NCBI GenBank assembly: GCA_951799445.1
Contig: OX637297.1
Location: 8,494,001 to 8,558,000 of the forward strand
Direction of reading: 5' to 3'
Origin: Pseudisothecium myosuroides
Lineage: Eukaryota > Streptophyta > Bryopsida > Hypnales > Lembophyllaceae
Length of the DNA: 64,000 bases
Made by a program: the position numbers and the translations under genes. Shown here one piece after another: positions 11,531 through 64,000 of this stretch; positions within the stretch are counted from its first letter, which is position 1; each line of letters begins with the position of its first letter. Below the pieces are notes generated by a model that saw only the letters and a list, made by a program, of their open reading frames with translations, made no database searches and was not told where the DNA came from.

Positions 11531-11814
11531 ATTCCACATTTTCAGACACCACGCCACGCGGTAAGGGTAAATTAGGATAAGTTTTTTTTTATGTGCAAAA
11601 AATTCTAAGCCGGTGAAATTTGAAGTGGTCCGGATTGTCCGATTGTCCCATCCGGGAAGTCTAGTGACCCTGATTTGTCCAATGTAACAACCCTGGTTTC
11701 CTTCCCCCCTATTTGGAGTTCTTCCAATTATTTGTTTCATCTTTGAGTCAAGGATAATTGACACTCCATTAATGCCCTGCATGTTTTTCAATCTAGACAC
11801 TTAGATTCTAACTA

Positions 11815-43678: not shown

Positions 43679-44731
43679 CTAGTTCCTAGCACGACCACGC
43701 CACTCTATGACTACGTTATCCGATGGAAGTACGTAGCGCGCCCCCATGTTCGTCGTGGACGTTCTCATTGCATTGGTGACTTCTTGGTAACGGTAGTCAT
43801 TAGGGAAGAGCGGCGCCTCTCCGATCCGATTGGCCTCTACATACTCCTATAATCTACCTGGTTGGACGTCCGAGACAAGATGCTTGAGCCACGGCAGGAG
43901 GTCCCCCATGAGGAAGTTGTTCCTCTACTTCTCGTGGTTCCAAGTGTCAAGAATAATCAAGTTCCCCCTCTCATTGCATATACACTTGTGCGGAGTGTCG
44001 TCAATGAGAAGGGTGTTGTCTGCGGAGAACGTCGTGTTACCACTGGGATTGAGGAACAGCGTCTCGGACAGGACCTTCATGAAGACGACTTTCACACCGT
44101 AGTGATAATACCTCCCCCGAGTGACCTCTATCTTTCTGCACTCACTTTGGGCCAAGACATCGAAGGGGGCCCTGCAATGACTAAATATGTGTGCCGCTAT
44201 CGGTTCCGCGTTGGACTTGACCATCAAGGTCCACACTAGAACCCTATCCGCGATGTTCAAGACCTCTTGGAGGAATTCAGCAACATTTTTTCGGGCGAAC
44301 ACCGCCTTTGGTCCGATGATCGTCGGGTTTCTATGGCAGAGAACATTGTCTTGGACCTTGTGGGCCTTGAATTGCGGTTGCATTCCAAAGTCCTTGGTCT
44401 CCACTTGGCAGAGCACCCCATTTAGGTCGAAGACAATGTTCAGCCACTTCCTCCTGGGTTGCGGCACTACAGGCGGCACATTTTTCGGCACAATCTCTCT
44501 CCCGCCTTGCGACTCTACTTGATTACATCAGAACAACAGAGAAAATGGAGTTACCTGTTTAAATGCAGAAGTGGGAGAGCCAGACAGAGGGGAAACGGAT
44601 TGAATGCCACACATCGACTGCGGTCTCCCATTAGGAAGGGCTTTCACAGGCAGCGGACGGTACACGCTCTTAAGTTTTTTGGATTGAGCAAAAAAACAAT
44701 GACAGTGCAATACAATTAGACCATGGTCCAT
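43679..44731 (-). pseudogene. FCP1/NLI-type HAD phosphatase-like gene, with in-frame stops
   Basis: The family (FCP1, SCP, TIM50) dephosphorylates phosphoserine on protein tails such as RNA polymerase II. Here RKWLNIVFDLNGVL (nt 44428-44411 for DLNGVL) is HAD motif I with Asn in place of the second Asp, VLVWTLMVKSN is the motif II region, and TLLIDDTPHKC is the DDSP-type motif IV. The same DxN change is in the 13.7-kb paralogue, so it is inherited. A conserved C-terminal part (LLPWLKHLVSDVQPG) follows. The frame runs without frameshift from ATG 44731 to 43679 but contains TGA (44530-44528), TAG (43927-43925) and TAG (43849-43847). The TGA lies in a 42-base segment (44554-44513) beginning GTAACT and ending AG, which could be a very short intron. 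Loss of the acid/base Asp suggests altered or absent catalysis. Confidence 0.7.
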
Positions 44732-44760: not shown

Positions 44761-45252
44761 AACAAACGTTACATAACACATCCGCAAAATTTTGCTGTCT
44801 TCTATGGCGCGACAGAGCTGTACACTAAACATTATACTACACTAAACTACATGCAACGCAGTCGCAGACGATTTCTCCGTGAGCACCAGGAAATCAAGGA
44901 GTGGCGACGCCATCCTGTCAAGCAGTATGAATTTGAATGAGCGACCAAAACACATATACAACACAGTTGACTAGAACTCTAAGTGTTTTGGACTCAGTCG
45001 AAATCATAAGGGTCAGCTAATTGTACCTGAGCGGATTCCACTCGCTGCAAAATCACACCCTCCTGGGTCCCTTTGACCGCAGGCTCATCCGCCATCATCG
45101 TGTCGACGATGTCCTCCAGTTCGCCATAGTTGACTTGCTCTTCCTCAAGAGGAATTGGCGACTCCAGGTGACCCACATCCTCCCTGGACGTCTGACATGC
45201 TGTCCCCTCTACTGCCACTGCCTCATACGGAGGCTGGAAACCCCTTCGCGAG

Positions 45253-45273
45253 TTATCGTCGACTCGACGATGT
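45253..45273. promoter_or_regulatory. Palindrome copy inside coding sequence
   Basis: TATCGTCGACTCGACGAT is an almost perfect copy of the dispersed near-palindrome, inside the C-terminal tail frame (encodes RRVDDN on minus). Confidence 0.6.
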
Positions 45274-45432
45274 CCCTCCCCCGCCTGGCCCGCTGTAGGT
45301 TGCTGAGTGGGATCAACCACCTCTTGACTCACAACTCCAAATCCAGACCGATCGAGAGAGGCAATTGTCGGAACTTGGGATGCCGGCGTGGAAGTCACCA
45401 AGTCTACGTTGGCAAGAGACACCACGTTGCTA

Positions 45433-45453
45433 CTATCATCGGGTCGAGGATCC
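45433..45453. promoter_or_regulatory. Palindrome copy inside coding sequence
   Basis: TATCATCGGGTCGAGGAT, about 180 bp from the previous copy, in the same frame (encodes DPRPDD on minus). Confidence 0.55.
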
Positions 45454-46235
45454 GGTAGCTTAGACACGAGCTGCCTCATCTGGTGTGACACGCCTTGTGC
45501 CGGCGCAGACACAGATCACTGCTGAGGTGGAGCAACGGGCACTGAAACCTGAAGGCTCACCGTCTGACTAGCTGGAGTCTGCTGAGACATGAAAAAAGAT
45601 TCGAATCGTGCCATTTTAGCCTCAAGAATCGCAATCTGCTTCTTAGATTCTGCTTGAACTGCAATGATCTTCTTATTCAAAGCCTCCAGTTTGTCAGCCA
45701 TCTCTTTGTCCTTCGCCTCCCTCGCCGCCTTCCTCTCCAGCCTTCGGGTCCTGGCATCGTCCTCTGCTTGCCACCAGCCTTTCTCTTTCTTCACGGGTCC
45801 AAGAGGCGTTAAGCTTGGGGCCACGAGGACAGCAAGCTCACTACCAGGCATGATCTCCTGCGACTACGTGCCCTCGAGGTTGGGTGGCCCGCCCTCGGCT
45901 TCGGACTTGTCGTCATCGTCCGATTCGTGCCGCACGTCCGCTTCATCGACGTCCTTTATTTCGACTACATCGGCATGCAACACCTTGTGCTTCCTCTTCA
46001 GCCATTCTGGAATGTCGGGATCATCAAGGAAGCTGTATTCTTCCGTGACGATGGGATTGGGCGGATCCATCTCTTTCGACGGCCCCGCTTTGGAGTCATG
46101 TGTGCCCCGCTGAGCTGCTGCTTGCTGCTGCTCCTCGAACTCATGGTCTATTTAGACATCCTCGTCAGGTTGCTAGGGTATTTGGACAGCAAGCGGGGCC
46201 GGCTGTACCAATGGCATGGCTTGCTGGGCCGCAGG

Positions 46236-48152
46236 TCAGGTTGGCTGGACCACGGACAGAGCAGGAAACGCTATCCAAGCGTACACCTGAAATGTGTTGG
46301 ACCCGTACTGGTCAATGCCCAGCACTCCTGGATCTGTCGTTACATGCAGGCCGACGGACTCCGTCTCCCGCTGTTGTGGTTCGGGAATGTGGTTGGGTGA
46401 GTCGAGAGTTGTTGGCGGTGACGACGGCGAGCTCGATCTGACAATTGCAGGACCCCGACGTGGTGGTGCGATGTACGTCAAAGTGTATGGCGAATTGGAG
46501 AACATGAAGTCTCTCTTGTCCATCTTTACCGCCAAATCTGCGATTGAAGGGTACCCCTTCACGTCATCCCTGTCCACAAAGCCGTAGAAGTACGCCTCGA
46601 ACATCTGCAGCAGTAACTCAGGAGTTAGTTTGGTGTTGTGACTTTGGCCTGGCAAATAGCTATTGTCCCATAGACTTGCTGATACCATCCACTCGAGCGT
46701 AGGACAGATCGCTACTTTGAACAACAATGTCAAGCAAATAAATAGAAAACATTGTGTATCCTCGGGTCGAGGATAGCAACTGCTGGCGACTTGAACGAAA
46801 GTGTTGAGACCATCGTTACCCTTGACTTGAGGGTACATGACATAGTGGTGACAAACACAAACCTTTGCAGCCAACATGAATTTCGCTCCGGTGTAGAGAC
46901 CGAGAACGTTTTCCTCGGGTGTAGCGAATGCCTGCAGAATGTCGAGGTAGAACTCCATTCGTAGTTCGATGGCGAAAATTCTCCACTTAGATTCCGTGTT
47001 CCTTGCGGGGTTCTTGTAGTACACGTTTGTTTCTTCCGGGGCACGGTATTCTGACTTCACATAGTCACGAACCTCTGACACAAACTCGCTATCCTTCTTA
47101 AACAGGAAGAGTAGTGGTTGGGATGGGGCTTTCCCTTGGTTTGTGACGTTGTTGAGCATTTCGGCGTTGCATGGGTAGTACGTGGATTAAACACAGTCAT
47201 ACTCTTTCAACTTCAGTGCTGCAAATGCTGTGGCAGCACTGAGGTCGTCCTTGTCTTCCAAGATGAAGAGCCAGACTTGAGGTTCTGTCATGTTCGGCTC
47301 CAACTTCTCCAGAAGGAAGTTAAAGAGAGGATCGAGGTCGATCTCTCTGTCTGTAGCTTTTGACCTCGGGATCTCTCTTACGTCCAGCACAGCGAGGGGA
47401 ACTTCTCGGGCGTGGTACTTATACCGCGTGCTTGAGACCAGCGCCTTCGCGATGATGTCAATCCCATGCACCTGTACGCCACCCTTCTGCTCTGGAAGCT
47501 GGTACTTCAGCTTCATGAACCTTTGAAACATGTGAAGGACTTCGGGGAATTCCTTCTTCAGGTCCTTGGCACGTTTTGTCCAGGCGTCGTTCATCAATCG
47601 CTTCTTGAAGTATTCGGGCTTGGGATACGACAACAAGAAATCCCAGCTTCCAGATGTGAATTGATGCCTTCTCTTCCAGGACCTCCAGTTTGCGTCAATT
47701 ACGTCCTCTCCGTTGTCAATGAAGTTCAGCAAAGGCTTCATGTCCATCAAATCTTGACGAATGACTTTCTTGCGCTTTCTGCGCTCAGCCCAGGCCTGGT
47801 TCGGCATGTTGTCTACCGCCAAAATTTGTGCTTTGCCGACCGACACCTTGGGGTATACGACTTTACGATTTGGTGTAGTACCAAGGAGATGTTCTGCTTG
47901 CACACCGAAATCCAAGTCTGTGAAGTGCCCCTTGTACCTGAAGAACTCTTTCTTCAGGGCGACCCTTTTGTAATGCTTCCCTTCCTTGTAGGGTTTCAGG
48001 GTGACGGGATCAATGATGTCGCCTTCGGCCTGCTTTGTCAAGAAGACCTTCCAATTCTTGAAGAGGTCGTCCGGGAGCGTGATGATTTGGATTTCGTTTT
48101 TGAGGTCCGACGGACCTCTGACAGTCGAGCCCTCTTTATCTGGATTTATGCT
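46236..48152 (-). pseudogene. Degenerate N4/N6 DNA methyltransferase-like region
   Basis: From a likely splice acceptor (GATATTAG, exon start 48152) one frame runs to 46236, broken only by TAA at 47189-47187. Landmarks in order: PLAVLDVREIP (nt 47393-47367) where beta-class DNA methyltransferases have DPPY/W; QVWLFILEDKDDL then LKLKEYDCV (the usual 'gLlFvf ... Gf ... W' segment); SQPLLFLFKK (the 'hE.ilvf' segment); and FYLDILQAFATPEENVLGLY then TGAKFMLAAK (nt 46950-46866), close to 'L...l..ft.pGd.VLDpFaGsGttl.AA'. DPPY is not preserved and FxGxG is altered (YTGAK), so activity is doubtful. In bacteria and phages a ParB-type domain is often followed by this methyltransferase class, as here with the upstream 501-codon gene. 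A segment at about 46855-46715 with GT and AG edges contains a palindrome copy and may be an intron. The call rests on motif reading alone. Confidence 0.45.
46756..46776. promoter_or_regulatory. Palindrome copy in a probable intron
   Basis: TATCCTCGGGTCGAGGATA, a perfect palindrome apart from its centre, lies in the segment I suspect to be an intron of the methyltransferase-like region. Confidence 0.6.
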
Positions 48153-48250
48153 CTAATATCTGTCGACGACTGCACCTGTGAAGTTTTGTTTAACGAAGAC
48201 AATGCGAACGTTAGATAGCTATTTGCTGTTTGTTAGTTCCTAAATACAGC

Positions 48251-48271
48251 TTATCGTCGACTCGAGGATAC
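48251..48271. promoter_or_regulatory. Palindrome copy in the intron or spacer after the 501-codon frame
   Basis: TTATCGTCGACTCGAGGATA lies between the 501-codon frame and the exon at 48152. A partial copy, CTGTCGACGAC, is at about 48160-48171. Confidence 0.65.
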
Positions 48272-48292
48272 AATCAACAACAAGATCAAAAT

Positions 48293-49798
48293 CTAGCACC
48301 CCCAATTGACTTGTAATTGACGTGACTTCGAGATCAAGGCAATATTGTTGAGCCGACTATAAGCAATAGGGTTAGTTTCTACCTTGTAATTGTTAATATT
48401 GTACACCAACTTGTTGCGCTGATTAGCACTCTCGTTTGGTTTGTCTGTCGGGCGCTTGCAGGTGATCCAGATGTTTCGGCAGCTCACTATCTGGTTCCCC
48501 CAGGTGGGCTGTGCAAATTCAAGATGGTTTGTTGCGTTGTAAAACTGCGATATTTTTCGCAACTTGTTGGCATCCTGAGTCCACACAATGTACGCATCCC
48601 ATCTTTGTAGTTCCACCTTTTGATCTTCGCCGCAATCGGAGATCTGCAGCTCTTTTGATGCTGTGACACTGTGTTGACCGTTTATAATCATGAATTGCAT
48701 ATTCTTGATTTGGTCCCACGACGTCGGCTTGTTCATGAGCAACTCCTTCTTATGGTTGACAGGCGTAACGCAGATCTTCTGCCGCTGCCTGATGTCGATG
48801 AGCATGACCAAGAAGTCCTTGTTCTTGTCGATCGAGTCCCTCTGCAGTGCGCGGATCACGTACTCATCTCTCGCGATGATGCATTGCTTGATGTCCACGC
48901 TCTGGGTTGCATTATCGAAGAGAAAGCAGATTTTGTGCTCTGCCCAGAATGCTCGCTGAATGATGGCGTGCCTCTGGTATTCTTCGAGCGGCTCTTTTGC
49001 TTGACCAACTTCGACTTGGGTGAGTGATGATCCGAAGCTCTCAGCGCCAACTACTTCGCCACAGAGAGTCTTCTTCCTCTTTCTCGTGGACTCCGTCCCT
49101 CCAGAGTTTGTTTCATCCCGTTTCCTAGACACAGACCTCCTCTGACTGGGTCTGGTACCCTGACTTGCCTCCTCCGTTGCACCAGATGGTGGTTGTTGGT
49201 TTTCGCTGTTGAGGGCTCGTCGTTCTCGGACTAAGTTCCTCCCTACGCCTGGAAGGGGCTCTACATTTGCCATTGCGTATCGGTCGAGGGTCTGAAATAT
49301 AAGCTGCAGTCTGGTTGCGTTCGCTTGTGCCGTGGTGTCCACCCAGGGGACGTAGCCAAGAGTCTCGAACTCGTCGTTGAGGGTGTCCATCTGCAATCCC
49401 TCGAGGAAGGTCATCAAATTCTCGAGGTCAAATTTGCCGTGGCCTGAGCACACATTGATTATGATAGTGTGGCAGTGTTTTCCCGCATCGCCGTTGTCGT
49501 TTACTTCGCGGAGGGCGATGGCTACATAGTTTTTGTGGTGGTGGCTGATGAGCATGACCTTCTCGTTCATGGTCCACGGCAGGTACTTGGTTTGGCCCGT
49601 TGTCTTGTACCTTAAGTATACAAAGTTTTTCCACCTACTCATCCCAAAACTCCATGTCGCTATGTGCTCTTTGAACTGCCAAAGGCAGCCGTAGCTGCCC
49701 TCCTTCTCACTAATAAACGATTCGTCATTCAAGGGATTGACGAATGGTTCGAGGTGGTGCTCAGTTTTTGAGTAGTCATAGCCTTCGTCTGCTGCCAT
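48293..49798 (-). CDS. DGQHR/ParB-like domain protein, intact 501-codon frame
   Basis: An uninterrupted frame starts at ATG 49798 (CAAAACCATGGCA context), with a leader carrying repeated palindromes upstream. Residues 1-190 form an unrecognised N-terminal domain (YGCLWQFKEHIATWSFGMSR; LRYKTTGQTKYLPWTMNEK). Residues 195-260 are polar and basic, with a possible nuclear signal (RKRKK, about 239-243). Residues 275-445 match the DGQHR/ParB-superfamily plan: FMIINGQHSVTASKEL (about 369-384) at the DGQHR motif, then WDAYIVWTQDANKLRKIS, then NATNHLEFAQPTWGNQI at the usual N...W segment. In this superfamily the motif lies in a nucleotide-binding or nuclease-like pocket (ParB, DndB). The frame may splice at CAA-GTCAAT (48310) onto the exon at 48152, joining it to the methyltransferase-like region; the phases agree. 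The function is inferred. Confidence 0.6.
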   Translation of the reverse strand: MAADEGYDYSKTEHHLEPFVNPLNDESFISEKEGSYGCLWQFKEHIATWSFGMSRWKNFVYLRYKTTGQTKYLPWTMNEKVMLISHHHKNYVAIALREVNDNGDAGKHCHTIIINVCSGHGKFDLENLMTFLEGLQMDTLNDEFETLGYVPWVDTTAQANATRLQLIFQTLDRYAMANVEPLPGVGRNLVRERRALNSENQQPPSGATEEASQGTRPSQRRSVSRKRDETNSGGTESTRKRKKTLCGEVVGAESFGSSLTQVEVGQAKEPLEEYQRHAIIQRAFWAEHKICFLFDNATQSVDIKQCIIARDEYVIRALQRDSIDKNKDFLVMLIDIRQRQKICVTPVNHKKELLMNKPTSWDQIKNMQFMIINGQHSVTASKELQISDCGEDQKVELQRWDAYIVWTQDANKLRKISQFYNATNHLEFAQPTWGNQIVSCRNIWITCKRPTDKPNESANQRNKLVYNINNYKVETNPIAYSRLNNIALISKSRQLQVNWGC

Positions 49799-49843
49799 GG
49801 TTTTGATCTGAAATCAAGTAACTACAGCTGGTTTGTATGAGTG

Positions 49844-50620
49844 CTATGCTCGATTCGAGGATATCGTATACTGGTTCTTTTTTAATTTTCTAGGTCCTTA
49901 TTGCTTGGTAATTCACTGGTGTACTTTTCCTGTTGGTTTTAGGATTTATTGTCGACCCGATAATACTTTGTCTAGGTTTTCGGTTAGGTTTAGTATCAGT
50001 TTGTTGTCCGTCTCTGGACGTTGTCCCTGGTCTCCCTTATTATTTTTAAGAAAGCTAAAGCAGGTTATCCTCGGGTCGACGGTAGCATATTTAGTCTCTA
50101 AGTTTCCTTAGCTGTTTCCTATCCTCAGCTCGAGGATAACCTTTGTTTCGTTTTTGTTTGCTATGTTTCTTTGCTTATATTAGAGCTGGAATTTCACCTG
50201 TACTTAGCGCAGGTTGTAGAGTAAATATCATAATGAGTACTGCTTGTGTCACTCCTAGAGTTACTACTCGGGATACTCCTAGATTTAGTGCTTGATTTAC
50301 TCCTAGAATTAGCGCGTGACTAGGGTCCACAGCGCAGGTTCTTTGGTCTAGGGTATGTACAATATTGGTTTCTTCTACGTTTTAGTTATCCTCGGGTCGA
50401 CAGTACTTCTAGTTGATAGGTTGTCTTCACAATTTTTCTTTCTTTGTTAAGTATATATTTTTAAAAGTTTGGGTAATTCTGTTCATTCTGGACGTTGGAG
50501 TTATCGTCGAGTCGACAATAAGAAGGTGAATGTGACGAGTCCAGTGGTTTTACACGCGGGCCGAGGATAACTAGGATATTTTTTACTTTTGCATGGTACT
50601 TATCCTCGGCTCGACAATAA
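49844..50620 (-). promoter_or_regulatory. Leader with seven strong and one half copies of the palindrome
   Basis: Copies of about TATCSTCGRSTCGASRATA lie at 49844-49864, 49946-49966, 50065-50085, 50119-50139, 50386-50406, 50501-50521 and 50600-50620, with a half copy at 50550-50571. The nearest begins about 46 bp upstream of the ATG at 49798 and the farthest about 820 bp upstream. The spacing is irregular, so this is not a tandem array. They are either promoter or 5'-leader elements or sites recognised by the encoded protein. Confidence 0.7.
50210..50325. repeat. Short ~22-bp repeat ACTCCTAGAGTTACT
   Basis: ACTCCTAGA followed by TTAGTGC- or TTACT-like words recurs about four times between 50250 and 50325, within the palindrome-bearing leader. 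Confidence 0.45.
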
Positions 50621-50639
50621 CCGTAATTGCTAAGCGGTC

Positions 50640-50715
50640 TGCATAACCCTGAACTGGGCTTCGTAAACCCTAATCTTGCTCCCTAAACCCTAATCTTGCT
50701 TCCTAATCCCTAGCC
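50640..50715. promoter_or_regulatory. Telo-box cluster (AAACCCTAA) upstream of the minus-strand block
   Basis: CCCTAAACCCTAATCTTGCT-type words repeat three times, with another AAACCCTAAACCCTAA at about 51208-51225. Telo-boxes are common in plant promoters of growth-related genes. They could also be telomere-derived debris. Confidence 0.5.
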
Positions 50716-51250
50716 TAAGAAAGACTTTTTTGCTGCAAGAAAACTACAGACTTCTCTAAACCGAATAAAATTGCTAGTTCCAAAGATGTGGTGGTACATG
50801 AAACTTACTTGCAAACCTTAAACTCAATAACGCACTTCCTTTTCAAATTGTAGCCTTCAATACCAAAAACCATGAACTGAAAATTCTGCAATGACATTGA
50901 CAACCACAGGAATTAAAAAAGGTTAAAATGAAACTCAAACAAGCACACAAAGAGCACAACAAAGAAGTACACAAATTGCAAGAACAGTCATTTGCATTCG
51001 AAACAGCAACAGACACAAACCAAACAGCAAAAGTAGCAGACAGAAACCAAACAAATAAACCAATGCACCAAATCCAAGGAAACACTAAGTCATACAACAA
51101 AAGTCGCAGACAAAAACGTGACAGCAGAAGGACAGAGCAAAACTAGCAAACTGTAAGATGCACCAACACACAAACATTCACGACATCACGATTACCAAGC
51201 AAGAACCTAAAACCCTAAACCCTAATGAACCGGGAAGGAGTAAAAATTTC

Positions 51251-51357
51251 ACCTTCAATCGCCTTGAACTGACGCTCTCCCGCCTTCAGTCGACGCTCTC
51301 CCACCTTCAGTCGACGCTCTCCCACCTTCAGTCGATGCTCAAACGCCTTCAATCGAC
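51251..51357. repeat. 21-bp tandem repeat, about five units
   Basis: CCTTCAGTCGACGCTCTCCCA and variants repeat with a 21-bp period. The outer units are more diverged. Confidence 0.8.
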
Positions 51358-51540
51358 AAAATTCCGGCGCTCAGAGCCCTGGTCCTCCGCCGCACAGAGC
51401 CGTGGTCCTCCGCTCGAGGTTGCCTTCAACCTTAAAACCCACATAAAAAACTTAGATTCATGATTGTGAGGTTTTGAAATTGCAAACAACAAGCGCAGCT
51501 CCCGCCTCGAGCCTCCCGAGAAGTTAGCGATGCGCACATT

Positions 51541-51640
51541 CAGAAACACAGAGTGAAAAACAGAGGAAAAGAGAGAAAAAAAGAGAAAAAGAGAGAGACG
51601 AAGAGAGAGAAAGACAGAGAAAGAGAGAGTGTGGGAGAAG
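51541..51640. promoter_or_regulatory. GA/CT microsatellite tract
   Basis: About 90 bases of almost pure purine (GAGAGA, AAAGAGAG) on plus, a CT tract on the minus strand. Such tracts are typical of plant core promoters and 5' leaders, and this one lies about 1.8 kb upstream of the ATG at 49798. A 12-bp repeat (CCGCCTCTCCAC) follows at about 51728-51765. Confidence 0.6.
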
Positions 51641-51849
51641 GTTCACCTAGGTACTGGAGGCTGCCTGTGGAAAGGGAGCTGGCTTGGTTTCGTGAGGTTG
51701 CTTCTGCATAAATTCGAGTCCCCCACGGCCGCCTCTCCACCGCCTCTCCACCGCCTCTCCCGCAAAACACACTACACGCGCTCGTTGTCAAACTCGCAAT
51801 TTCTGCCTCAAAAACATCTCAACTGCTTTACTTCGAAGGTGGCGTAGAT

Positions 51850-52386
51850 TCTTGAAACTCCCAAAACGTTGTGCGCCTGCCGTCTGGTGTTTGAGAGTAA
51901 TCCGCAACGGAGGGCGCCTTCCTGCGGGGACGACGACCACTTGACGCTGATGCCGAACCTGAGGTATGTTTTCCAAACTTGATCTTCGAGCCTACCTACG
52001 TACCGAACCTCCTTACCGAACCTGCTCCGGTCTCCACCGAGGCTCAGGTACATGCCACCCCCCCATACTTGCTACTTTGCCTAATTACTACTTTTAGAGT
52101 GTTCAAATTCTTATGTATTCTTATAAGGAGGTTCCAACCCTAGTTCCAACATACCAAAAAACGCGAAAACAACAAAGTTAGGTTCTAGAAGCGTTTGTTT
52201 AATAGAAGTGCATAATTGATTTGAGAGATGTACACGCATTGAAGATGACGCTTTAAGGTTAGTGGCGCATTTGGAATGCCTACTTCAAGGGGAAAAGGTT
52301 GGAATGTTAAATTTCTGAGACATCGTAAATTTTCTTAATTTTGAATTCATGTTTGCAATCACTGACCCCAAATTAGGTAGAGGGGT
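51850..52386. other. Upstream flank of the minus-strand block, no gene
   Basis: GC content falls from about 52.1 kb on. Open frames on both strands near 51.8-52.05 kb overlap each other and show no domain. Confidence 0.4.
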
Positions 52387-53049
52387 TTAATCCCAAAATG
52401 ACTTTAAGGACAGAATGTGTCCTGGACCAATTTTTGAAGTTAAATAAAAGCTTTTGAAATTACTCATTTTAGGAGTTCATATTTTTGAAAAATTCTTTTT
52501 GAAGTTCTATTTTAGCTTCAAAAATTTGTTTCTGAAAATGTGCAAATGTGATTTCTGTATTCAAGATTTTGCGCACGAATCTCCATTGCAATTTTGACTT
52601 TTTGTAGTATTCATGGCTCTTGGGAATGAGCCTCACTTACACTACATGTTAGAGAAGAAATAATATAAGAAATTCATTTTAAAAAATTATACAATTATAG
52701 GTTTTAAGTTGTCATAAATTGATTGAATTTATGCATGTTACACCCTTAGTTTACTCTTATATTTTGGGGTGACCAACTTCTTGTCTTGGACATGTAAAAA
52801 GAGGATTGAAAGACTTCAAATGACTTTCACAATTTTAACACCTGGATAATCGAACATTATAATCTTTCAATCCGTAAAAGACAATGTTTTGAACATTTAC
52901 TTCTCTAATGTAATGTCTAACATGTCTACTTTGATTTTATACGCTTACAATTCGAAAAGAATTGATACGACTTATGAAAATGTTGATTTTTTTCAATTTA
53001 GAGAAAATTATTAAAAGCTTTGAAAATTCCAGGATCATTTTGGGGTTAA
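52387..53049. mobile_element. ~660-bp TTAA-flanked element, copy 3
   Basis: The left edge is TTAA-TCCCAAAATGACTTTAAG and the right edge TCATTTTGGGG-TTAA, so the TTAA flanks and inverted ends CCCAAAATGA are intact. Internal sequence matches 31.56-32.2 and 39.75-40.37 kb. Confidence 0.75.
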
Positions 53050-53470
53050 GAATATAATTATCTTGAACAAGGCACAAAACATGGTTTAGGTTGCTATATT
53101 TACTTTGCAAAACAAGGAGTAATGTCTTAGTTTGTTACTCCCACTTTCAACAAAGGATTTAATGTCTTCCACACAGAAGTCAACAGAATCCTTTATAGAC
53201 TTCAAGATTTTAATGTTTGATTCGAATGATGACCACAAAAATTATGAAAGTAATTTCAAGCCTTTCAATCTTTCTTTTTGATGTCATTTTAGCAGTCACA
53301 CTCCAAAGCCAAAAAAGTAATAAAAAGCAAACGAGAAAGCAAACCAACACACACATGAAGCAAAAAAAAAACAGACATGTTTTCAGAAATGCTCGAATAT
53401 ACACCTCACATCTTGTAAAAACTACTTTATAAGTCATACTTAGGCGCATGAACCTCAATCATTGCTTTTA
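53050..53470. other. Spacer before the satellite array
   Basis: No gene. Short open frames on both strands at 53210-53458 are low-complexity and not supported. Confidence 0.4.
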
Positions 53471-56335
53471 CTCCTCCACTCGCCATTAAATTTCATGACA
53501 TTTGGATTCAAGTTCCACTAAGTACAGTTAATGGGTTTTTGGTTGTATTTTTTTTTATCTTTCCAAAAAAGGGCAAAAAATTAATCTCCACATGGATTCT
53601 CCAAGTGGAGATTATTTACAACTTGCACATTTTTTTCACTCCTCCACTTGCCATTAAATTTCATGACATTTGGATTCAAGTTCCACTAAGTACAGTTAAT
53701 GGGTTTTGGTTCTATTTTTTTCCTCTTTCCAAAAAAGGGCAAAAAATTAATCTCCACATGGATTCTCCAAGAGGAGATTATTTACAACTTGCACATTTTT
53801 TTCACTCCTCCACTTACCATTAAATTTCATAACATTTGGATTGAAGTTCCACTAAGTACAGTTCGTGGTTTTTGGTTGTATTTTTTTTCATCTTTCCAAA
53901 AAAAGGCAAAAAAATAATCTCTACATGGGTTCTCCAAGTGGAGATTATTTACAGCTTGCACATTTTTTTCACTCCTCCACTTGCCATTAAATTTCATGAC
54001 ATTTGGATTCAAGTTCCACTAAGTACAGTTAATGGGTTTTGGTTCTATTTTTTTTCATCTTTCAAAAAAAGGGCAAAAAATTAATCTCCACATGGATTCT
54101 CCAAGAGGAGATTATTTACAACTTGCACATTTTTTTCACTCCTCCACTTGCCATTAAATTTCATGACATTGGGATTGAAGTTCCACTAAGTACAGTTAAT
54201 TATGGGTTTTGGTTCTATTTTTTTCCTCTTTCAAAAAATGGGCAAGAAATTAATCTCCACATGGATTCTCCAAGTGAAAATTATTTAAAACTTGTACATT
54301 TTTTTACTCTTCCACTCGCCATTGAATTTCATGGCATTTGGATTCAAGTTCCACTAAGTACAGCAAATTCATGGCTTATTTTTTTGTTTTTTTCTCTTTG
54401 AGGGCAAGAAATTAATCTCTACATGGATTCTCCAAGTGGAAATTATTTACAACTTGCACATTTTTTTCACTCCTCCACTTGCCATTAAATTTCATGACAT
54501 ATGGATTGAAGTTCCACTAAGTACAGTTCATGGGTTTTGGTTCTATTTTTTTTCATCTTTCCAAAAATGGGCAAAAAATTAATCTCCACATGGATTCTCC
54601 AAGAGGAGATTATTTACAACTTGCACATTTTTTTCACTCCTCCACTCGCCATTAAATTTCATGACATTGGGATTGAAGTTCCACTAAGTACAGTTCATGG
54701 TTTTTAGTTCTATTTTTTTCCTCTTTCAAAAAAAGGGCAAGAAATTAATCTCCACATAAATTCTCCAAGTGAAAATTATTTAAAACTTGCACATTTTTTT
54801 ACTCTTCCACTCGCCATTGAATTTCATGGCATTTGGATTGAAATTCCACTAAGTACAGTTAATTATAGATTTTGGTTCTATTTTTTTCCTCTTTCAAAAA
54901 TGAGGGCAAGAAATTAATCTCCACATGGATTCTCCAAGTGGAGATTATTTACAACTTGCACATTTTTTTACTCCTCCACTCGCCGTACAATTTCATGACA
55001 TTTGGATTGAAGTTCCACTAAGTACAGTTAATTATAGATTTTGGTTCTATTTTTTTCCTCTTTCAAAAATGAAGGCAAGAAATTAATCTCCACATGGATT
55101 CTCCAAGTGGAAATTATTTGCAACTTGCACATTTTTTTCACTCCTCCACTCACCATTAAATTTCATGAAATTGGGATTGAAGTTCCACTAAGTACAGTTA
55201 ATTATGGGTTTTGGTTCTATTTTTTTCCTCTTTCAAAAAATGGGCAAGAAATTAATCTCCACATGGATTCTCCAAGTGGAAATTATTTGCAACTTGCACA
55301 TTTTTTTCACTCCTCCACTCACCATTAAATTTCATGAAATTGGGATTGAAGTTCCGCTAAGTACAGTTAATTATGGGTTTTGGTTCTATTTTTTTCCTCT
55401 TTCAAAAAATGGGCAAAAAATTAATCTCCACATGGATTCTCCAAGTGGAAATTATTTGCAACTTGCACATTTTTTTCACTCCTCCACTCGGCATTAAATT
55501 TCATGACATTGGGATTGAAGTTCCACTAAGTACAGTTCATGGTTTTTAGTTCTATTATTTTCCTCTTTCAAGAAAAGGGCAAGAAATTAATCTCCACATG
55601 GATTCTCCAAGTGGAAATTATTTACAACTTGTACATTTTTTTACTCCTCCACTCGCCATTGAATTTCATGACATTTGGATTCAAGTTCTACTAAGTACAA
55701 CAAATTCATGGCTAATTTATTTATTTATTTTTTTCTTTCAAAAATGAGGGCAAGAAGTTAATCTCCACATGGATTCTCCAAGTGGAAATTATTTGCAACT
55801 TCCACATTTTTTTCACTCCTCCACTCACCATTAAATTTCATGACATTGGGATTGAAGTTCCACTAAATATAGTTAATTATGGGTTTTGGTTCTATTTTTT
55901 TCCTCTTTCAAAAAAAGGGCAAGAAATTAATCTCCACATGGATTCTCCAAGTGAAAAGTATTTGCAACTTCCACATTTTTTTCACTCCTCCACTCGGCAT
56001 TAAATTTCTTGACATTTGGATTGAAGTTCCACTAAGTACAGTTCATGGTTTTTAGTTCTATGTTTTTCCTCTTTCAAGAAAAGGCAAAGAAATTCATCTC
56101 CACATGGATTCTCCAAGTGGAGATTATTTACAACTTGCACATTTTTTTACTACTCCACTCGCCATTGAATTTCATGACATTTGGATTCAAGTTCCACTAA
56201 GTACAGCAAATTCATGGATAATTTTTTTATTCATTTTTCTCTTTCAAAAAAGAGGGCAAGAAATTAATCTCCACATGGATTCTCCAAGTGGAGATTATTT
56301 GCAACTTGCACATTTTTTTCATTCCCTCACTAGCT
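53471..56335 (+). repeat. ~167-bp satellite array, about 17 units, plus orientation
   Basis: The anchor word CTCCTCCACT, or a close variant, recurs at 53471, 53639, 53805, 53972, 54139, 54307, 54470, 54637, 54802, 54971, 55141, 55310, 55479, 55644, 55816, 55985 and 56150, with spacings of 163-172 bp. Each unit carries TTTCATGACATTTGGATT, then CCACTAAGTACAG, then a T-rich tract with GGGCAA, then the hairpin AATCTCCAC ... GTGGAGATT, then CAACTTGCACATTTTTTT. Some units have a second sequence type after CAAATTCATGG. Open frames along the array are by-products of the repeat. Confidence 0.95.
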
Positions 56336-58240
56336 AGAACATCTATTTTGAAGTTGAACAACTTGGGTTTTGGGTGTCACAAAGTACTACTTTTATGTGG
56401 CGAAACTTGAAATTTATTTTGAATTGAATAGTTGAAGAAGACTCACAGGTTCAGCTTCTTTGTGTTTAGGGGCGTTCTTTGTGCTCTTTGTAATCATGAG
56501 CCACATAATGACTGGAATTTTTTTTGAAACTACGGGGTCCCACACTAATTTCTTCACAATGTACACCTTGTAAATATTTTTCTAGTTACTGTCCAGGAAA
56601 GCAATACTTTAGAGTTAGGTACTACTATAGTTGAAACTTATGAACTTCCAAAGTTACATGCACATGAAAATAGTTTTAGAAATATTTGTTGCTTGGCTTC
56701 TGTGGCTTATAAAATAGCTTAGTGTTTTTTGTTCACGCCGAGATTTAAGACAGTAGGGCACAGATTTTTTGTGCTTAGTACCAATAAAAAATGTTTAGAG
56801 TATTTTCAACTTCACTTGCACAATTTATTTATTTATTTATTATTTTGAATATAAAATTCATGAAGGGAAAAAATGTGCATGTTTAAAATAATTCCCACAT
56901 GCAAAATCCATACAAGAATTAAATTATTGCACCTCATTTAAGAGGAATTAAGGAAAAAAATTAAAAATTATCCGCGGCTGCCTTGTAGTTAGTGGAATTG
57001 AATTCTAAATGTCATGAAATTTAATGACCATTTGAGGAAGAAAAAAATGTGCAAGTAGGAAATAATCTGTGCATGCAAAATGAATGTGGGGATGAAATTC
57101 TTGCAACTACTATGAAATAAATAATTTCATTTTATTTCTTCATGAACTGAATGCGGTGATGGATTTGAAATTGCTTAATAGAATATGTCCAACTTCTATA
57201 CTATTTGTTTCCTATCCATGTGCACTTATTTTATGAGTAATGAAATTATGGTTCTCTAAAATACAGGGCATGGCCCATTTTTCTTTAGTTAAGTAGCAAA
57301 TTTTTTTTAAAAAGAAAAAAAAAATGCGGCTACAAATTTGAAAGTGAAGTGTAGATTATGTCTAACTTCTACATTTTCTTTCTACACCCATGTGCACTTA
57401 TTTCATGAGTCATGAAATTATGGTTCGGTATAATGCATGACTTGATTCTTTTTTCTTGAGTTATATACCAAATTTTAAAAAATGGGTCACGAATTAAATA
57501 ATAATTGCCGGCATAATTGCCTTCCATTTCAATAAGTATGGCACTTGAAATCAATGATGACTTCTATGTTGGGCGGTATCATTTGGAATGCATGGCGGCA
57601 CCTTGTAAATGGTTTATGTTAATCATTGGAGCACTTTAAATCAATGATGGCTTGCACATGAAACGATACAATTAGGAATGCATGGCGGCTCATTGTAAGT
57701 AGTTTCTCTCATTATGAATGCTAATGATTTGATATGAATATGGAGTGTCGTGGCCCATACTACTGTAGTGAACAAACTCACACTTAATGATTGAGAAATT
57801 TTAATTATATTAGTGAGAACTCTAAAATAAAATCGTGTCATATCATTTTCCAAGGTCACTCATGTTTTTTTACTAATCAATGAAGTACATAGTACTAATA
57901 TTCATATGCATACTCTAGAATATTTACATATAGTTAGTACAGTCATTCACTTTTAGATGACATATATAAATTCATTGAAAATGACTGTATACTTTTAGAA
58001 TAATTAAATTGAATAATTTCTATTTTTTGCCATTCAAAACCAAATTAGTGCAGAATAATAGGAATTGCATAAATCAAAGAATGATGCTCATACATTCTAA
58101 ATTGACCTGTACAATATTAACAATTTCTATGATTTCTGGCACTGAAGTTTTTCTAAGTACAAGACAGAAATTACGACTCATATTTTTTTAAATACAGATT
58201 ATTTTGTACAATTCAAAACATATATTAGGCATTTCATGCA
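56336..58240. other. Spacer between the inverted satellite arrays, with degenerate units
   Basis: The segment at 57005-57075 (ATGTCATGAAATTTAATG, then AAAAAATGTGCAAG) is a decayed satellite unit in the minus orientation. A ~90-bp duplication with CAATGATG and GGAATGCATGGCGGC lies at about 57541-57720. No gene is supported. Confidence 0.5.
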
Positions 58241-58248
58241 AGAGGGTA

Positions 58249-58590
58249 ATACAGGGCCCCATTCATTCCCAATTTCTTTTATTGCACAAAGAGATGGTTT
58301 TGAAATGGATATTAATAGAATTTTGATTTTGATTCTAAATCCTAAGACTATTCACAACTTCCTTAAATTGAAAATCAATGGAGATTCTATGTATTTAATG
58401 TCCAAGATTATCAAGTTCCATAGATTTTCGAACGTGAATGCTAAAAAAAAATACCCTAATTAAACTTCACAATTTTTTTCGTATTTGGAATCAAAAACAA
58501 TACTCTATTTGTACCCATTCAATTATTTCAAATCCATCTCCACTTGCATTACAAAAAGTTGGGAATGAACAGGGGCCCTTTGTTGTAATG
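58249..58590. mobile_element. Probable MITE with GGGCCCC...TTCATTCCCAA inverted ends
   Basis: ACAGGGCCCCATTCATTCCC at 58249 is matched by the reverse complement of the segment ending at about 58590 (GGGCCCCTGTTCATTCCC). The interior is AT-rich and has no supported gene. The exact edges and target duplication are unclear. Confidence 0.55.
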
Positions 58591-58839
58591 TTCACAATTA
58601 GTAGGAAAGTCTTGAATTTTTGTACGTGAATGCTTTTAAAAAAAAATGACCAAGTTCTAAATATTCATAGGACATGGAACCCAACAAATTATGCCACTTA
58701 TACCCATTTCAAATACATTTCCACGTAAATTACAACAAATTGGGTATTGGGAAAAAATGTGGCTAGTATAGATTTGAAATTAAAGTTTTATTACATTATT
58801 TTGAACTTACATTACATTTTGTCTACATTACATTTGAAT

Positions 58840-60690
58840 GCAAGTGGAGATTAATTTTTTGCCCTTTTTTTGAAAGAGGAAAAAAATAGAACCAAAACCC
58901 ACAATTAACTATACTTAGTGGAACTTCAATCCCAATGTCATGAAATTTAATGGTGAGTGGAGGAGTGAAAAAAATGTGGAAGTTGCAAATAATTTCCACT
59001 TGGAGAATCCATGTGGAGATTAACTTCTTGCCCTCATTTTTGAAAGAGAAAAATAAATAAATAAATTAGCCATGAATTTGTTGTACTTAGTGGAACTTGA
59101 ATCCAAATGTCATGAAATTCAATGGCGAGTGGAGGAGTAAAAAAATGTGCAAGTTGTAAATAATCTCCACTTGGAGAATCCATGTGGAGATGAATTTTTT
59201 GCCCTTTTTTCGAAAGAGGAAAAAAATAGAACTAAAAACCATGAACTGTACTTAGTGGAACTTCAATCCGAATGTCATGAAATTTAATGCCGAGTGGAGG
59301 AGTGAAAAAACTGTGCAAGTTGCAAATAATTTTCACTTGGAGAATCCATGTGGAGATTAATTTTTTGCCCTTTTTTTGAAAGAGGAAAAAAATAGAACCA
59401 AAACCCATAATTAACTGTACTTAGTGGAACTTCAATCCCAATGTCATGAAATTTAATGGCAAGTGGAGGAGTGAAAAAAATGTGCAAGTTGCAAATAATT
59501 TTCACTTGGAGAATCCATGTGGATATTAATTTCTTGCCCTCATTTTTGAAAGAGAAAACTAAATAAATAAATTAGCCATGAATTTGCTGTACTTAGTGGA
59601 GCTTGAATCCAAATGTCATGAAATTCAATGGCGAGTGGAGGAGTAAAAAAATGCGCGAGTTGTAAATAATTTTCACTTGGAGAATCCATGTGGAGATTAA
59701 TTTCTTGCCCTCTTTTTTGAAAGAGAAAAATAAATAAAAAAATTAGCCATGAATTTGCTATACTTAGTGGAACTTGAATCCAAATGTCATGAAATTCAAT
59801 GGCGAGTGGAGGAGTAAAAAAATGTGCAAGTTGTAAATAATTTCCACTTGGAGAATCCATATGGAGATTAATTTTTTGCCCTTTTTTTGAAGGAAGAAAA
59901 AAATAGAACTAAAAACCATGAATTGTACTTAGTGGAACTTCAATCCAAATGTCATGAAATTTAATGCCGAGTGGAGGAGTGAAAAAACTGTGCAAGTTTT
60001 AAATAATTTTCACTTGGAGAATCCATGTGGAGATTAATTTCTTGCCTTCATTTTTGAAAGAGAAAAATGAATAAAAAAATTAGCCATGAATTTGCTGTAC
60101 TTAGTGGAACTTGAATCCAAATGTCATGAAATTCAATGGCGAGTGGAGGAGTAAAAATATGTGCAAGTTGTTAATAATCTCCATTTGGAGGATCCATATG
60201 GAGATTAATTTCTTGCCTTTATTTTTGAAAGAGATAAAAAATTTAACCTTAAATCATTTACTGTACTATGTCAAACTTGAATCCAAATGTCATGAAATTT
60301 AATGGCGATGGAGGAGGAAAAAAAAGTTGCAAGTTCAATTTTTTCTCTACTTGGAGAATCCATGTGGGAATGAAGTTTTTGCCTTTATTATTGAAATTAA
60401 ATGATCCATTAAAAAGAAGCCATTTGCTGTACTTACTAAGTGGAGTTTGAATCCAAATGTTATGAAATTTAATGGGTATTGGAACAGTAAAAGAAAATTG
60501 AAAATTGAAAATAATTTCTACCTACATGGATAAATTCTTCACATGGTTATGAAATTCTTACGCCTTGTCTTTCAAAGAGGGAAAAACATAAAAATATAAG
60601 CATTGGCTGTACTTTGAGGAACTTAAATTCAAATGTCATGATATTTAATGGTGAGTAGCAGCGATTTGAAAACTGGCAAAATTTCGCTCG
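58840..60690 (-). repeat. ~167-bp satellite array, about 11 units, minus orientation
   Basis: The same unit as at 53.5-56.3 kb in reverse complement. The anchor GTGGAGGAG recurs at 58957, 59129, 59294, 59463, 59634, 59805, 59971 and 60143, then more diverged at about 60308, 60479 and 60652, with spacings of 165-173 bp. Divergence grows toward 60.7 kb, as expected at an array edge. Confidence 0.95.
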
Positions 60691-61075
60691 CTTCCTACTT
60701 TATTTTTTTTCCCCTTAGTTTAAATTTTTTAAATCTTCCAAATATGAACATTTGACTAAGAACCTTCAACCTATTTTCAAATTGCTGGCAAGTACAGTGA
60801 CGAGGAAATACCCCAGAAGTACATATAATTTGAATGTCGTACACCTCTACATTGTTTTCTGACATGCACTTGTATTTATTTGAGGACTCATTAATCTAAA
60901 ATTCTTCAAAATGCAGGTGCTAAGGGTTACGTCGTAAATTTTAAAAAATGAGTGTCTGATGACTTGAATGTGGCCATGAATTTGGAAGTAATCCTAGAGT
61001 ATTTTCAACTTCTACATTTTATTTATCACCCAAATAGACTTATTTTAATGGGAAAGATTAAATAACCAAAGTAAC
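60691..61075. other. AT-rich spacer, nothing recognised
   Basis: No gene or repeat is seen by eye between the satellite edge and the ~175-bp tandem repeat. Confidence 0.4.
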
Positions 61076-61079
61076 CCTT

Positions 61080-61560
61080 GCATTTATGAATGTTGTCATC
61101 GATGTGATGCCATAAAAATATTTGCAAGTTCTGAGTTCATTTATTTTTGAAAATTAAATGCAACGCCTATGATCAATTTTCATGGAGTGCTATTGAATAC
61201 GGCGACTGCATTTTATTAATTTTGATGGACAAAAACGAATAGCCAAATCGTTGCTTTCATGAATGTTGTCATGGATGTGAATGATGCCATAAAAATATTT
61301 TCAAGTTGTGGGTTTATTTATTTTTGAAAATTAAATGCAACGCCTATGATTTATTTTCATGGAGTGCTTTAAATATAGCAACTACATTTTATGAATTTAG
61401 ATGGGCAAAAATAAATAGCACAAACCTTGCATTCATAAATGTTTTCATAGATGTGATGCCATTAAAAGTATTTCCAAGTTGTGGGCTTGTTTTTTTATGG
61501 AAATGAAAATACAACATCTAAATATGATTTATTTGCATGGAGTGTTTTTAAATCCAGTGA
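61080..61560. repeat. ~175-bp tandem repeat, about 2.7 units
   Basis: GAATGTTGTCAT...GATGTGATGCCAT recurs at about 61087, 61261 and 61438 and is followed each time by TATTTGCAAGTT-like and AAATGCAACGCCTATGAT-like words. The period is 174-177 bp and the sequence is unrelated to the 167-bp satellite. Confidence 0.8.
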
Positions 61561-61564
61561 CCAC

Positions 61565-61882
61565 ATTTAAAATTTAAGGGTTTAGAGTTTAGGGTTACAA
61601 GAGCATTCCTCGGGGTATGGCATTTGAAACTAGTTTTTTTAGGTTTACAGGATTTAAGGGTAGGGTTTTAAGGAATTAGGGTCACAATTCACGGTTAAAG
61701 GATTTTAGGGTTTAGGATTTAGGATTTAGAGTACGATTTAGGGTTTAGGACACCTGAAGAAGAGATTATGTCCCACAAACTCAAAACCCTAAATTATTAC
61801 TCTAAATTGTAAACCCTGAGTGTTGCTTTAAAAACTTTACCCTTGGACCCCTGGACCCTAAACCCTAAACCCTAAAACCCGC
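61565..61882. repeat. Degenerate interstitial telomere-like tract, head to head
   Basis: 61565-61755 carries many TTTAGGG-type words on the plus strand (GGGTTTAGAGTTTAGGG, TTTTAGGGTTTAGG). 61785-61882 carries the complementary CCCTAAA type, ending CCCTAAACCCTAAACCCTAA. The switch from G-rich to C-rich strand is near 61770. The repeats are imperfect throughout. Confidence 0.75.
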
Positions 61883-62727
61883 CACATACAAAATCGCATG
61901 AACCTCGCCAAAAGCAACTTCAAAGAGGTTTTCTGGTTTGACAGCAAGACACATGCAAAAAGAGAGCAGAATATGTTGCCCGGAACTGCAAAAATAGGGC
62001 CTGCAGTGGCGCTCCATGATTTTGTAAGTACATCATGTGGTAATGAGTCAATCAAATCCAGCAATAGTAAGGAACTGCCACGACGGGAGACTTTTTTGGG
62101 AGGGCATGAATTCACGCTGCCAGGCTTTCTACACCACGAAATCGGGCATCCGTTGACTTCGAAGAGTTTTGAAATTTTGCATTTTCGCGCCTTCCTTCCT
62201 TCCCGCGCTTTCCTTCGTACCCGCGCCTTTCTTCCTACCTGCGCCATCCTCCCTCAAGATTTCTCTTCTCTCCCGGTGACCTTGACGTCACCAGGTTTCC
62301 ATCGTAGCGCAAGAAGGCGGCTTTAGTTGCTCCATTCGCTTTGCTGCTTCTGCATTGCTCACGCATACCGCATTGCTATCTTTGATCTTGAGGAATGATT
62401 GTGCCATTCTCACAATTTCATGCAAACCCTCAAGTGTGTTATGACCTTCTCGTTTTCAGTGATATCAGTTCATAGTAAGCGATCTTGATCTTGGGTCAAT
62501 TTGCGCAGTACCTTGTTTCTCCCGTTGGTTGTGTATATCCTATGCGCTTACATTTCATGTTCTTTAGTTCTAGTGTTGCGATGGACATCAGTGAATTGTA
62601 GATGTTAGGATTCTGAACGTTTCTTGTGCGGACGAATGTGATCGAATATCCTCAATGCTGCTTTGCTATTGGACCCGACTTTTCCGCCGTATATTTCGGA
62701 AACACATCGCTTTGAAGAACAGTGTAC
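61883..62727 (+). promoter_or_regulatory. Probable promoter/leader start of the right-hand gene
   Basis: A frame of 142 codons is open on plus at 61898-62326, but an overlapping frame on minus is equally open and neither shows a domain. The CT-rich tract, 18-bp repeat and nearby telo-box words resemble the promoter side of the minus-strand block at 50.6-51.8 kb. Confidence 0.35.
62186..62257. repeat. 18-bp tandem repeat, four units
   Basis: CGCGCCTTCCTTCCTTCC and variants start at 62186, 62204, 62222 and 62240, an exact 18-bp period, pyrimidine-rich on plus. It lies in the probable promoter or leader region of the plus-strand gene at 63545. Confidence 0.85.
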
Positions 62728-63513
62728 TTGTCCTCGGGTCAACGATAACTCCCTTGTAGTGTTTTCATCACTGTATTTATTCTTGTTTCGACGAGAACTA
62801 TATGTGGTCGAATTGTTTTCTCGGAATACGGACTATTGTCGAGTCGACGATAACTTCATTAGTGTGTTTCTAGACACTTTCAGCCCTGCTACATTACAAG
62901 TAGTTAATATATTTTACGAAATCCTAAACTATAAAACATGATAGAGGATCTATCCTCGAGTCGACTATAATGGAGACTTCGTGTTTTGACCAGTATCATA
63001 TTTCGGAGTCTGACCGTATTGTTGGAAGTCAGCCTTCGAATGTAGAGGAAGGAAATTAGAAGTATAACTTATGATACTGAGGGCAATAGGAGAGTATGTA
63101 CTTGTTGACGACACTGGGGACGTTTCTGTAGTCTAGGGTGTTGTCGAGGGTGACTGACCTGCCTACAGTTTATTCGCCTATAAGTTACAGAGTCTTACTT
63201 CTGAAGTGACTTGGGTGACATCCTTTTTTATATCAGGATTTACCCTTTCTTTTACTAGGTACTATTAAAACATTAATTAGTGAACCACTTATACTCGAAT
63301 CGACTATACTGTCCAAAAATATTACATTGACGTCGGGTTTGGGAGTTGTGTTATTAAGCGTTGTCTTGTTTGTACTATACTACCTTGAGTTATATGTGTA
63401 TTCTCAATTTCTGAGTTATAGTTGCATTGGGTATTTCCTTTTTTTACAGTATAATATAGAGTTTTTTCCTCCGTATGAATAGTCGTAACCTGTTACCCTC
63501 GAGTCGATGATAA
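62728..63513 (+). promoter_or_regulatory. Leader with five copies of the palindrome
   Basis: Copies lie at 62728-62748, 62833-62853, 62950-62970, 63289-63309 and 63493-63513, with a weak half copy at about 63137-63157. The last ends about 31 bp before the ATG at 63545 and the first starts about 820 bp upstream, nearly the same spread as in the leader of the minus-strand gene. Outside the motif the two leaders are not obviously similar. Confidence 0.7.
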
Positions 63514-63544
63514 ATTTAACTGATGTCTTCTGCCTTATTGCAGA

Positions 63545-64000
63545 ATGGATATTCATGGGCCTGAAGAGTTTGATAACCCTGTTCCAATTCTTCCTCCGAG
63601 TGTTGCTGCTTGTGACGGAATCCCTCGTTCTTCTTGGAACACACTGGGAGTCACCCTCAAAAACGAAGCGGGAGATGACGTTGCAGACAGAGTTTGTCAA
63701 AGCGTCAACGCGGACCTCGTCATTGATATAGATGGTCGTCCGCTTGGTGACGAACGGGTTGCCGTTCAAATTGCGGAGTCTTTGTGCGAGGCCGAGGTCC
63801 CATCAGCTTGGATGTGGTCAATGCGCTCTTGGGACATTAAGAGGGTATTCTTGAACAATGCCAGTCTATATGACCATGAGCAGACACAGATATACAATGC
63901 GGTTGTATGTGCCTTGAACCATCGAGTTTGTGTTGGTGTGCGTTCCTATGAGAGCTCTCGAGGGCGGGTTGAAGTCGGTCTTCCTCCAAAAAAAGAATCT
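63545..64000 (+). CDS. Unrecognised gene, first 152 codons, cut by the window edge
   Basis: From ATG 63545 a plus-strand frame is open for 152 codons to the last base. It begins MDIHGPEEFDNPVPILPPSV and includes DLVIDIDGRPLGDERVAVQI, then SAWMWSMRSWDIKRVFLNNA, then QTQIYNAVVCALNHRVCVGV. Codon use and GC content are like the minus-strand block and unlike the AT-rich flanks, and there are no internal stops. I recognise no family and see no similarity to the 501-codon protein. The palindromes immediately upstream suggest shared regulation or common membership in the same system. An open frame on the opposite strand (63769-63416) is shorter and lacks this context. Confidence 0.6.
   Translation, partial: MDIHGPEEFDNPVPILPPSVAACDGIPRSSWNTLGVTLKNEAGDDVADRVCQSVNADLVIDIDGRPLGDERVAVQIAESLCEAEVPSAWMWSMRSWDIKRVFLNNASLYDHEQTQIYNAVVCALNHRVCVGVRSYESSRGRVEVGLPPKKES

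Follow-up and report, generated by a model that had tools for sequence, protein, structure and literature searches.

We find that a near-palindrome of 19-21 bp, present in 17 copies in a 64,000-nucleotide stretch of the Pseudisothecium myosuroides genome, belongs as a conserved component to a dispersed element, and that it changes together with the clade of the protein which this element encodes. The stretch, referred to as the window, comprises positions 8,494,001-8,558,000 of contig C11 in a genome assembly of 388 Mb and 222 contigs, and the copies belong to two genes that face away from each other, here called the left gene and the right gene. The palindrome is probably a cis-acting recognition site of this eukaryotic element, to which a symmetric protein of the element itself would bind and which would keep the genes of the element expressed or shielded; we infer both binding and purpose from sequence comparison. 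A sequence-only reading of the window had described the palindrome before. Its description of the copies held up, but it had missed that the block recurs in the genome as an element, that the sites keep their positions in the introns of relatives, and that the copy in the window has decayed.

Copies of the palindrome in the window and in the genome

A search of the window allowing up to three mismatches returned 33 strand matches at 17 places, as compared to a mean of 0.09 and a maximum of 2 in 100 shuffles, and all 17 are confined to 45,254-50,619 and 62,729-63,512, in agreement with the sequence-only reading. A symmetric matrix derived from the copies shows an almost fixed core, T-C-G-N-N-N-C-G-A, and outer arms TATC/GATA, while positions 5 and 15 hold either a C or a G. 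When the window is scored with the matrix from the 17 copies, 16 places reach at least 20, whereas a simulated window has 0.01 such places on average, a result that speaks for the density of the sites and not for their independence, as the matrix was trained on the same copies. Twelve copies lie in the leaders, seven on the left and five on the right, and the closest copy stands 46 bp away from the start codon of the left gene (ATG at 49,798) and about 32 bp away from that of the right gene (ATG at 63,545), which fits the earlier estimate of 31-46 bp. The remaining copies are found in introns 1 and 2 of the left gene and, at 45,254 and 45,434, within the open frame of its tail, where they had been placed before. 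The leaders had also been said to share little else, and indeed, with the sites masked, they have at most 16 aligned bases in common (E 0.34).

Weaker extra copies include one at 46,817 in intron 2, which is CpG-decayed, and another at 50,551, of which half has decayed. The observed/expected ratio of CpG is 1.97 to 2.37 within the sites (partly built in, as the motif contains CpG by definition), and 0.71 to 0.83 outside the sites in the same leaders and the left gene; for the AT-rich interior between the leaders it is 0.35. Immediately 5' of each ATG we read, by eye, a likely splice acceptor, so that the leaders may be introns of the 5' untranslated region. Outside of the element, weak and CpG-decayed-looking matches occur at 11,738, 12,616 and 12,846 (matrix scores 12.0, 8.8 and 13.6), where no left-gene relative was found. 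A near-perfect palindrome, CATCCTCGGAACGAGGATG, lies at 43,083 (score 16.1) in an open reading frame (ORF) downstream of the NIF-type phosphatase gene (Table 1).

Across the genome, the exact consensus has 77 + 72 strand matches and the reversed pattern has none, while the protein encoded by exon 2 of the left gene has at least 125 matches, a lower bound that includes split pieces of single copies. Among the matches listed of these 149 there are 64 distinct sites, and 45 of them have an exon-2 match no more than 20 kb away; 500 random placements, for which the size of contig C6 was assumed, gave a mean of 0.8 and a maximum of 5. The linkage of the palindrome to paralogues of the left gene, which the sequence-only reading had raised, is therefore borne out. 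The divergent layout of two genes with an array each and with starts 11 to 14 kb apart recurs at C2:36.36-36.37 Mb, C1:8.11-8.12 Mb and C1:19.136-19.149 Mb. Sites with TATC arms are present at 13 of the 14 loci with left-gene exons, and all 12 copies of this type that possess both exons, and which share about 39-99% protein identity, carry five to nine sites in the leader, one or two in intron 1 and two or three in intron 2. Six sites precede the right gene in L015 and likewise in L017. Most of the 16 loci taken up first were chosen for a nearby listed site, and four (L019, L023, L025 and L029) were chosen from the protein list alone; three of the latter have TATC-type sites and one has TCAA-type sites. 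Contig C11, with 16.9 Mb the smallest of the large contigs C1-C11, holds a large share of the exon-2 matches, many of them with stops, and is possibly a degenerate or sex chromosome.

The sites are retained in leaders that otherwise do not align. Exon 1 of L016, L018 and L020 is 83-85% identical to that of the window, yet with sites masked the leaders of L016 and L018 give no match to the window leader and that of L020 matches over only 28-43 bp. In several copies with an exon 1 of this identity, leader alignments extend over at most 28-44 bp while six to eight sites are kept, and in six of seven copies the site closest to the exon start stands at 44-47 bp, the exception being L019 (broken exon) at 178. 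The sequence-only reading had held that a single transposon with otherwise alignable copies would speak against a regulatory role; the palindrome does belong to a dispersed element, but the leaders of several of its copies are not alignable in this manner. The leaders of one close pair, L019/L020, do align with each other throughout (998 bp at 87%).

We collected 136 relatives from protein databases (48 by exon 1, 62 by exon 2, 26 for the right gene) and reconstructed intron DNA by back-translation of ORFs that run into an intron, requiring at least 13 codons past the donor and allowing at most one mismatch to the site. For intron 1, a site is present in 22 of 27 qualifying ORFs (20 perfect) and begins at +18 to +33 in 20 of the 22; for intron 2, it is present in 14 of 21 (11 perfect) and begins at +16 to +32 in 13 of the 14. 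The exceptions in position are P0021 (+81), P0053 (+90) and P0028, whose exon end was probably misplaced in our analysis. Overall, 35 of the 136 relatives contain a perfect translated match, in comparison with a mean of 0.12 and a maximum of 1 for 60 palindromes with permuted half-sites, and 44 contain one when a single mismatch is allowed (permuted mean 3.2, maximum 17). Three right-gene relatives (P0121, P0128 and P0132) carry the site in the portion of their ORF that precedes the start. Two right-gene relatives are on contigs of 289,069 and 750,066, sizes that match contigs of left-gene relatives, which suggests that both genes are linked there. Candidate relative stretches in viral_contigs (13, with no exact site) and in genome_contigs (34) were not confirmed in any case.

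Change of the site with the protein

In L029, which belongs to a subfamily of 30-38% identity, the TATC matrix detects no site. A search for clustered palindromes in this locus and in five further ones (L030-L035 were chosen from the protein list alone) revealed a changed palindrome in leader and introns, namely TCAASTCGNNNCGASTTGA in L029-L033, with arms TTAA or TTAT in L034 and TTAG in L035. The proteins of this second clade are 22-30% identical to those of the first; the core STCGNNNCGAS is retained, while TATC is replaced in the arms by TCAA, TTAA or TTAG. When 26 loci were scanned for the core with matching arms, 262 sites were found (some counted twice, as L010 and L017 overlap) versus nine for the reversed core. 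By locus, the arms are TATC in 18, TCAA in five, and TATA, TTAA and TTAG in one each, the TTAG locus, L035, having two qualifying sites only.

We mapped the arm labels onto a tree built from 20 exon-2 proteins, a chosen set of copies with a long-branch warning for L026, L027, L034 and L035. The TCAA rows group together in a single clade with support of 100/99. Four changes account for the five labels, the fewest possible, which none of 200 shuffles equalled. L021, with mostly TATA arms, is nested within the TATC clade. In the leaders of L029-L033 the TCAA sites are spaced at steps of about 75 bp, as if the leader had grown by tandem duplication.

Candidate binding protein and rival explanations

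The product of the left gene is predicted to adopt a ParB-CTPase fold, followed by a degenerate amino-methyltransferase-like fold (beta-class/MT-A70-like). A profile comparison for the latter part is weak, with a probability of 3.75%, an E of 0.011 and a score of 27.2, whereas 40 column shuffles went as high as 20.3. ParB motifs usually have an arginine after GQH/GER; the likely nucleotide-binding box of this family reads NGQHS in the alignment, its equivalence judged by eye. At the likely catalytic strand the alignment reads LDxRxxPR in place of a DPPY-type motif, and we therefore do not class the product as an active methyltransferase; the motif for S-adenosylmethionine (SAM) is degenerate as well, both being judged by eye against the motifs as generally known. 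Pfam contains no family for the left gene, PHROGs nothing convincing, and sequence searches of the PDB returned nothing relevant.

The element is large and dispersed, its two divergent genes are separated by about 11-14 kb, and arrays of sites stand in both leaders and in the left-gene introns. We propose that a symmetric, presumably dimeric, element protein, most likely the ParB-like product of the left gene, binds the sites as double-stranded DNA, and that coverage of the non-coding DNA of the element keeps its genes expressed or protected from host silencing. In our assessment the sites are most likely conserved because the element's own ParB-like protein recognises them, and their most likely use is anti-silencing or control of expression. 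Among the functions that the sequence-only reading suggested without preference, the best fit is a target for the encoded ParB-like protein, as supported by the predicted fold and by the change of the site with the protein clade. Tentatively, one may go further and imagine a eukaryotic ParB-parS-like system, in which a clamp of ParB fold loads at its own leader and intron sites, spreads and counters silencing, with lineages that use distinct site codes (TATC, TCAA, TTAA or TTAG arms) on one core; in this specific form we hold the proposal to be possible but doubtful.

Several observations weigh against recognition by the element's own protein. Among the 64 listed sites, 17 are more than 50 kb away from any exon-2 match, and at least four of these adjoin a right-gene match. 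The left gene of the window looks decayed, judging by its in-frame stops (47,189, 46,238, 46,175, 46,154, 45,866 and 45,518, some of which could sit in undetected introns), so that the protein would have to come from another copy. The ParB-like domain appears to lack the usual arginine mentioned above, and the matches listed for two models included no helix-turn-helix domain for reading DNA, the search not having been made with the helical start of exon 2 by itself. The site is absent from five of 27 intron-1 and seven of 21 intron-2 reads, and eight of the 22 intron-1 carriers are near-identical members of one subfamily. With about four clade switches, coevolution would rest on few events. 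Furthermore, a TCAA copy on C9 with about 20 sites has no right-gene relative within 17 kb upstream, the 3' side beyond its NIF gene not having been searched. Lastly, the C/G choice at positions 5 and 15 matches between the halves in 17 of 23 intron copies of relatives (Fisher p 0.039), as a hairpin would also produce; in the window it matches in seven of 14 copies, and pooling both sets gives p 0.093.

This matching of positions is one of the reasons to consider an RNA element, an intronic hairpin acting on splicing or RNA export from a near-constant place about 20-30 nt past the 5' splice site. The near-constant place of the site in two introns would suit such a hairpin, as would leaders that may themselves be introns. 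In the window, however, the stems pair at 110 of 136 positions, compared to 107.8 (standard deviation 2.6) with right halves shuffled among the copies, and the mean hairpin energy is -3.32 versus -3.31 kcal/mol. Several leader copies have a predicted energy near zero, and the NNN loop of the core and both halves are retained where pairing is lost. Since neither covariation of the half-sites nor a change in energy is apparent in the window, a protein reading two half-sites of double-stranded DNA fits better, and we regard the hairpin as quite unlikely; the paired substitutions between half-sites that had been envisaged earlier are missing in the window and modest in the relatives. A dimeric host transcription factor, whose sites the element collected as enhancers, is an unlikely alternative: capture of enhancers would leave such arrays in introns and before start codons, and binding by an element protein is something we infer. 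On the other hand, all sites of a copy switch arms jointly between the clades on one core, for which two related host factors would be needed, and the listed exact sites are mostly near element copies.

The palindromes might instead serve transposition or replication, as subterminal sites for the DUF7869 protein of the right gene, similar to repeats bound by a transposase. The right gene does have its own array, in the window as in L015 and L017, but palindromes also lie inside genes and introns, their location at element ends is a supposition, and the C9 copy carries its TCAA sites with no right-gene relative in the upstream range given above; we consider this very unlikely, and the recombination or replication site considered in the sequence-only reading finds no support here. 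That the palindromes are functionless tiny mobile inserts or debris of tandem repeats is hardly credible. The only sign of such an origin that our search produced is the spacing near 75 bp in some TCAA leaders, by which tandem duplication would add copies, whereas the sites occupy the same places in copies with mostly unalignable leaders and in two introns of distant relatives, and their arms change in a coordinated manner across clades.

Other features of the element and relation to known systems

The coordinates of the features are collected in Table 1.

Table 1. Features of the element in the window (window coordinates; sites given by position)
Feature	Position	Strand	Remarks
Left leader array	49845..50619		7 sites: 49,845; 49,947; 50,066; 50,120; 50,387; 50,502; 50,601; half-decayed 50,551
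Right leader array	62729..63512		5 sites: 62,729; 62,834; 62,951; 63,290; 63,494; weak one 62,778
Exon 1, left gene	48383..49798	-	N-terminal PH-like region, then predicted ParB-like domain (residues about 297-428)
Intron 1	48153..48382	-	acceptor approximate; sites 48,343 and 48,252
Exon 2	46863..48152	-	helical region and predicted degenerate amino-methyltransferase-like fold; one in-frame stop, 47,189
Intron 2	46715..46862	-	acceptor approximate; decayed site 46,817, intact site 46,757
Remainder of left gene	44994..46714	-	same frame, several stops; sites 45,434 and 45,254 in open tail
NIF-type phosphatase gene	43925..44527	-	downstream of left gene; PF03031 E 9.8e-10
AT-rich interior between leaders	50640..62700		holds tandem array of 166-172-bp units
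Right gene, start	63545..64000	+	continues past window into DUF7869; 26 relatives; PF25273 E 1.2e-44

The frame of the right gene is broken by stops, also beyond the window, where its ORFs were seen in L036. A relative of the NIF gene lies 3' of the left gene in five other copies (L018, L021, L026, L027 and L029), and the gene probably belongs to the same element. The tandem array of the interior consists of two inverted arms, 53,466-56,325 and 58,836-60,518, about 2.5 kb apart. The window is 91% identical to L017 over 59,110-64,000, which includes part of this array, and 85-91% identical to L018 over 51,699-53,055, so that these parts, at a minimum, move along with the element. Elsewhere, an ORF at 2,953-3,777 matches DUF659 (E 2e-8, barely below the curated cut-off), as in hAT-like elements, and interstitial TTTAGGG-like repeats are present, which together with the eleven large contigs may point to a plant and perhaps to a moss.

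A limited literature search returned no account of ParB-like proteins in eukaryotic elements, palindromic intron motifs or DUF7869 that matches this system. The VANC/VANDAL system of Arabidopsis resembles it in that a short motif is repeated in the introns, intergenic and upstream non-coding DNA of the element itself, with arrays that grow by tandem repeats and with motif and protein changing together between families, as laid out in the part of the source available to us (PMC5735166); here, too, we observe arrays of a motif that lie in non-coding DNA of the element and change with the protein. In contrast, that part of the source nowhere calls the VANC21 motif YAGTATTAY palindromic, and VANDALs are Mutator-like (PMC5735166). 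The 19-bp dyad found here is kept down to about 40% protein identity, the candidate protein has a predicted ParB-like fold, and the right gene encodes DUF7869.

With ParB-parS, Noc-NBS and KorB-operator, the element would share a mobile unit that encodes a ParB-CTPase-like fold and carries palindromic sites near its genes, and in which related proteins go with related yet different palindromes (PMC12704722, in the portion available to us). Those are systems of bacteria and plasmids, whereas here the genome is eukaryotic and the genes have introns, and the canonical nucleotide motif does not, by eye, seem to be conserved. Unlike in ParB-parS systems, neither a helix-turn-helix domain (the limit given above applies) nor a ParA partner was identified for the element. 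A predicted ParB-like fold followed by an amino-methyltransferase-like fold in one gene also recalls the ParB-N6/N4 methyltransferase fusions of prokaryotes and phages (PMC12704722, same portion), but the methyltransferase part here, recognized by a weak sequence comparison, has no recognisable DPPY motif and a degenerate SAM motif.

If our interpretation is true, a ParB-like fold and palindromic sites of its own go together outside of the prokaryotes, and VANC has an independent counterpart, a second design for an arms race between element and host that is specific to sequence. As the site changes along with the protein within one genome, specificity is directly testable by swapping sites between clades.

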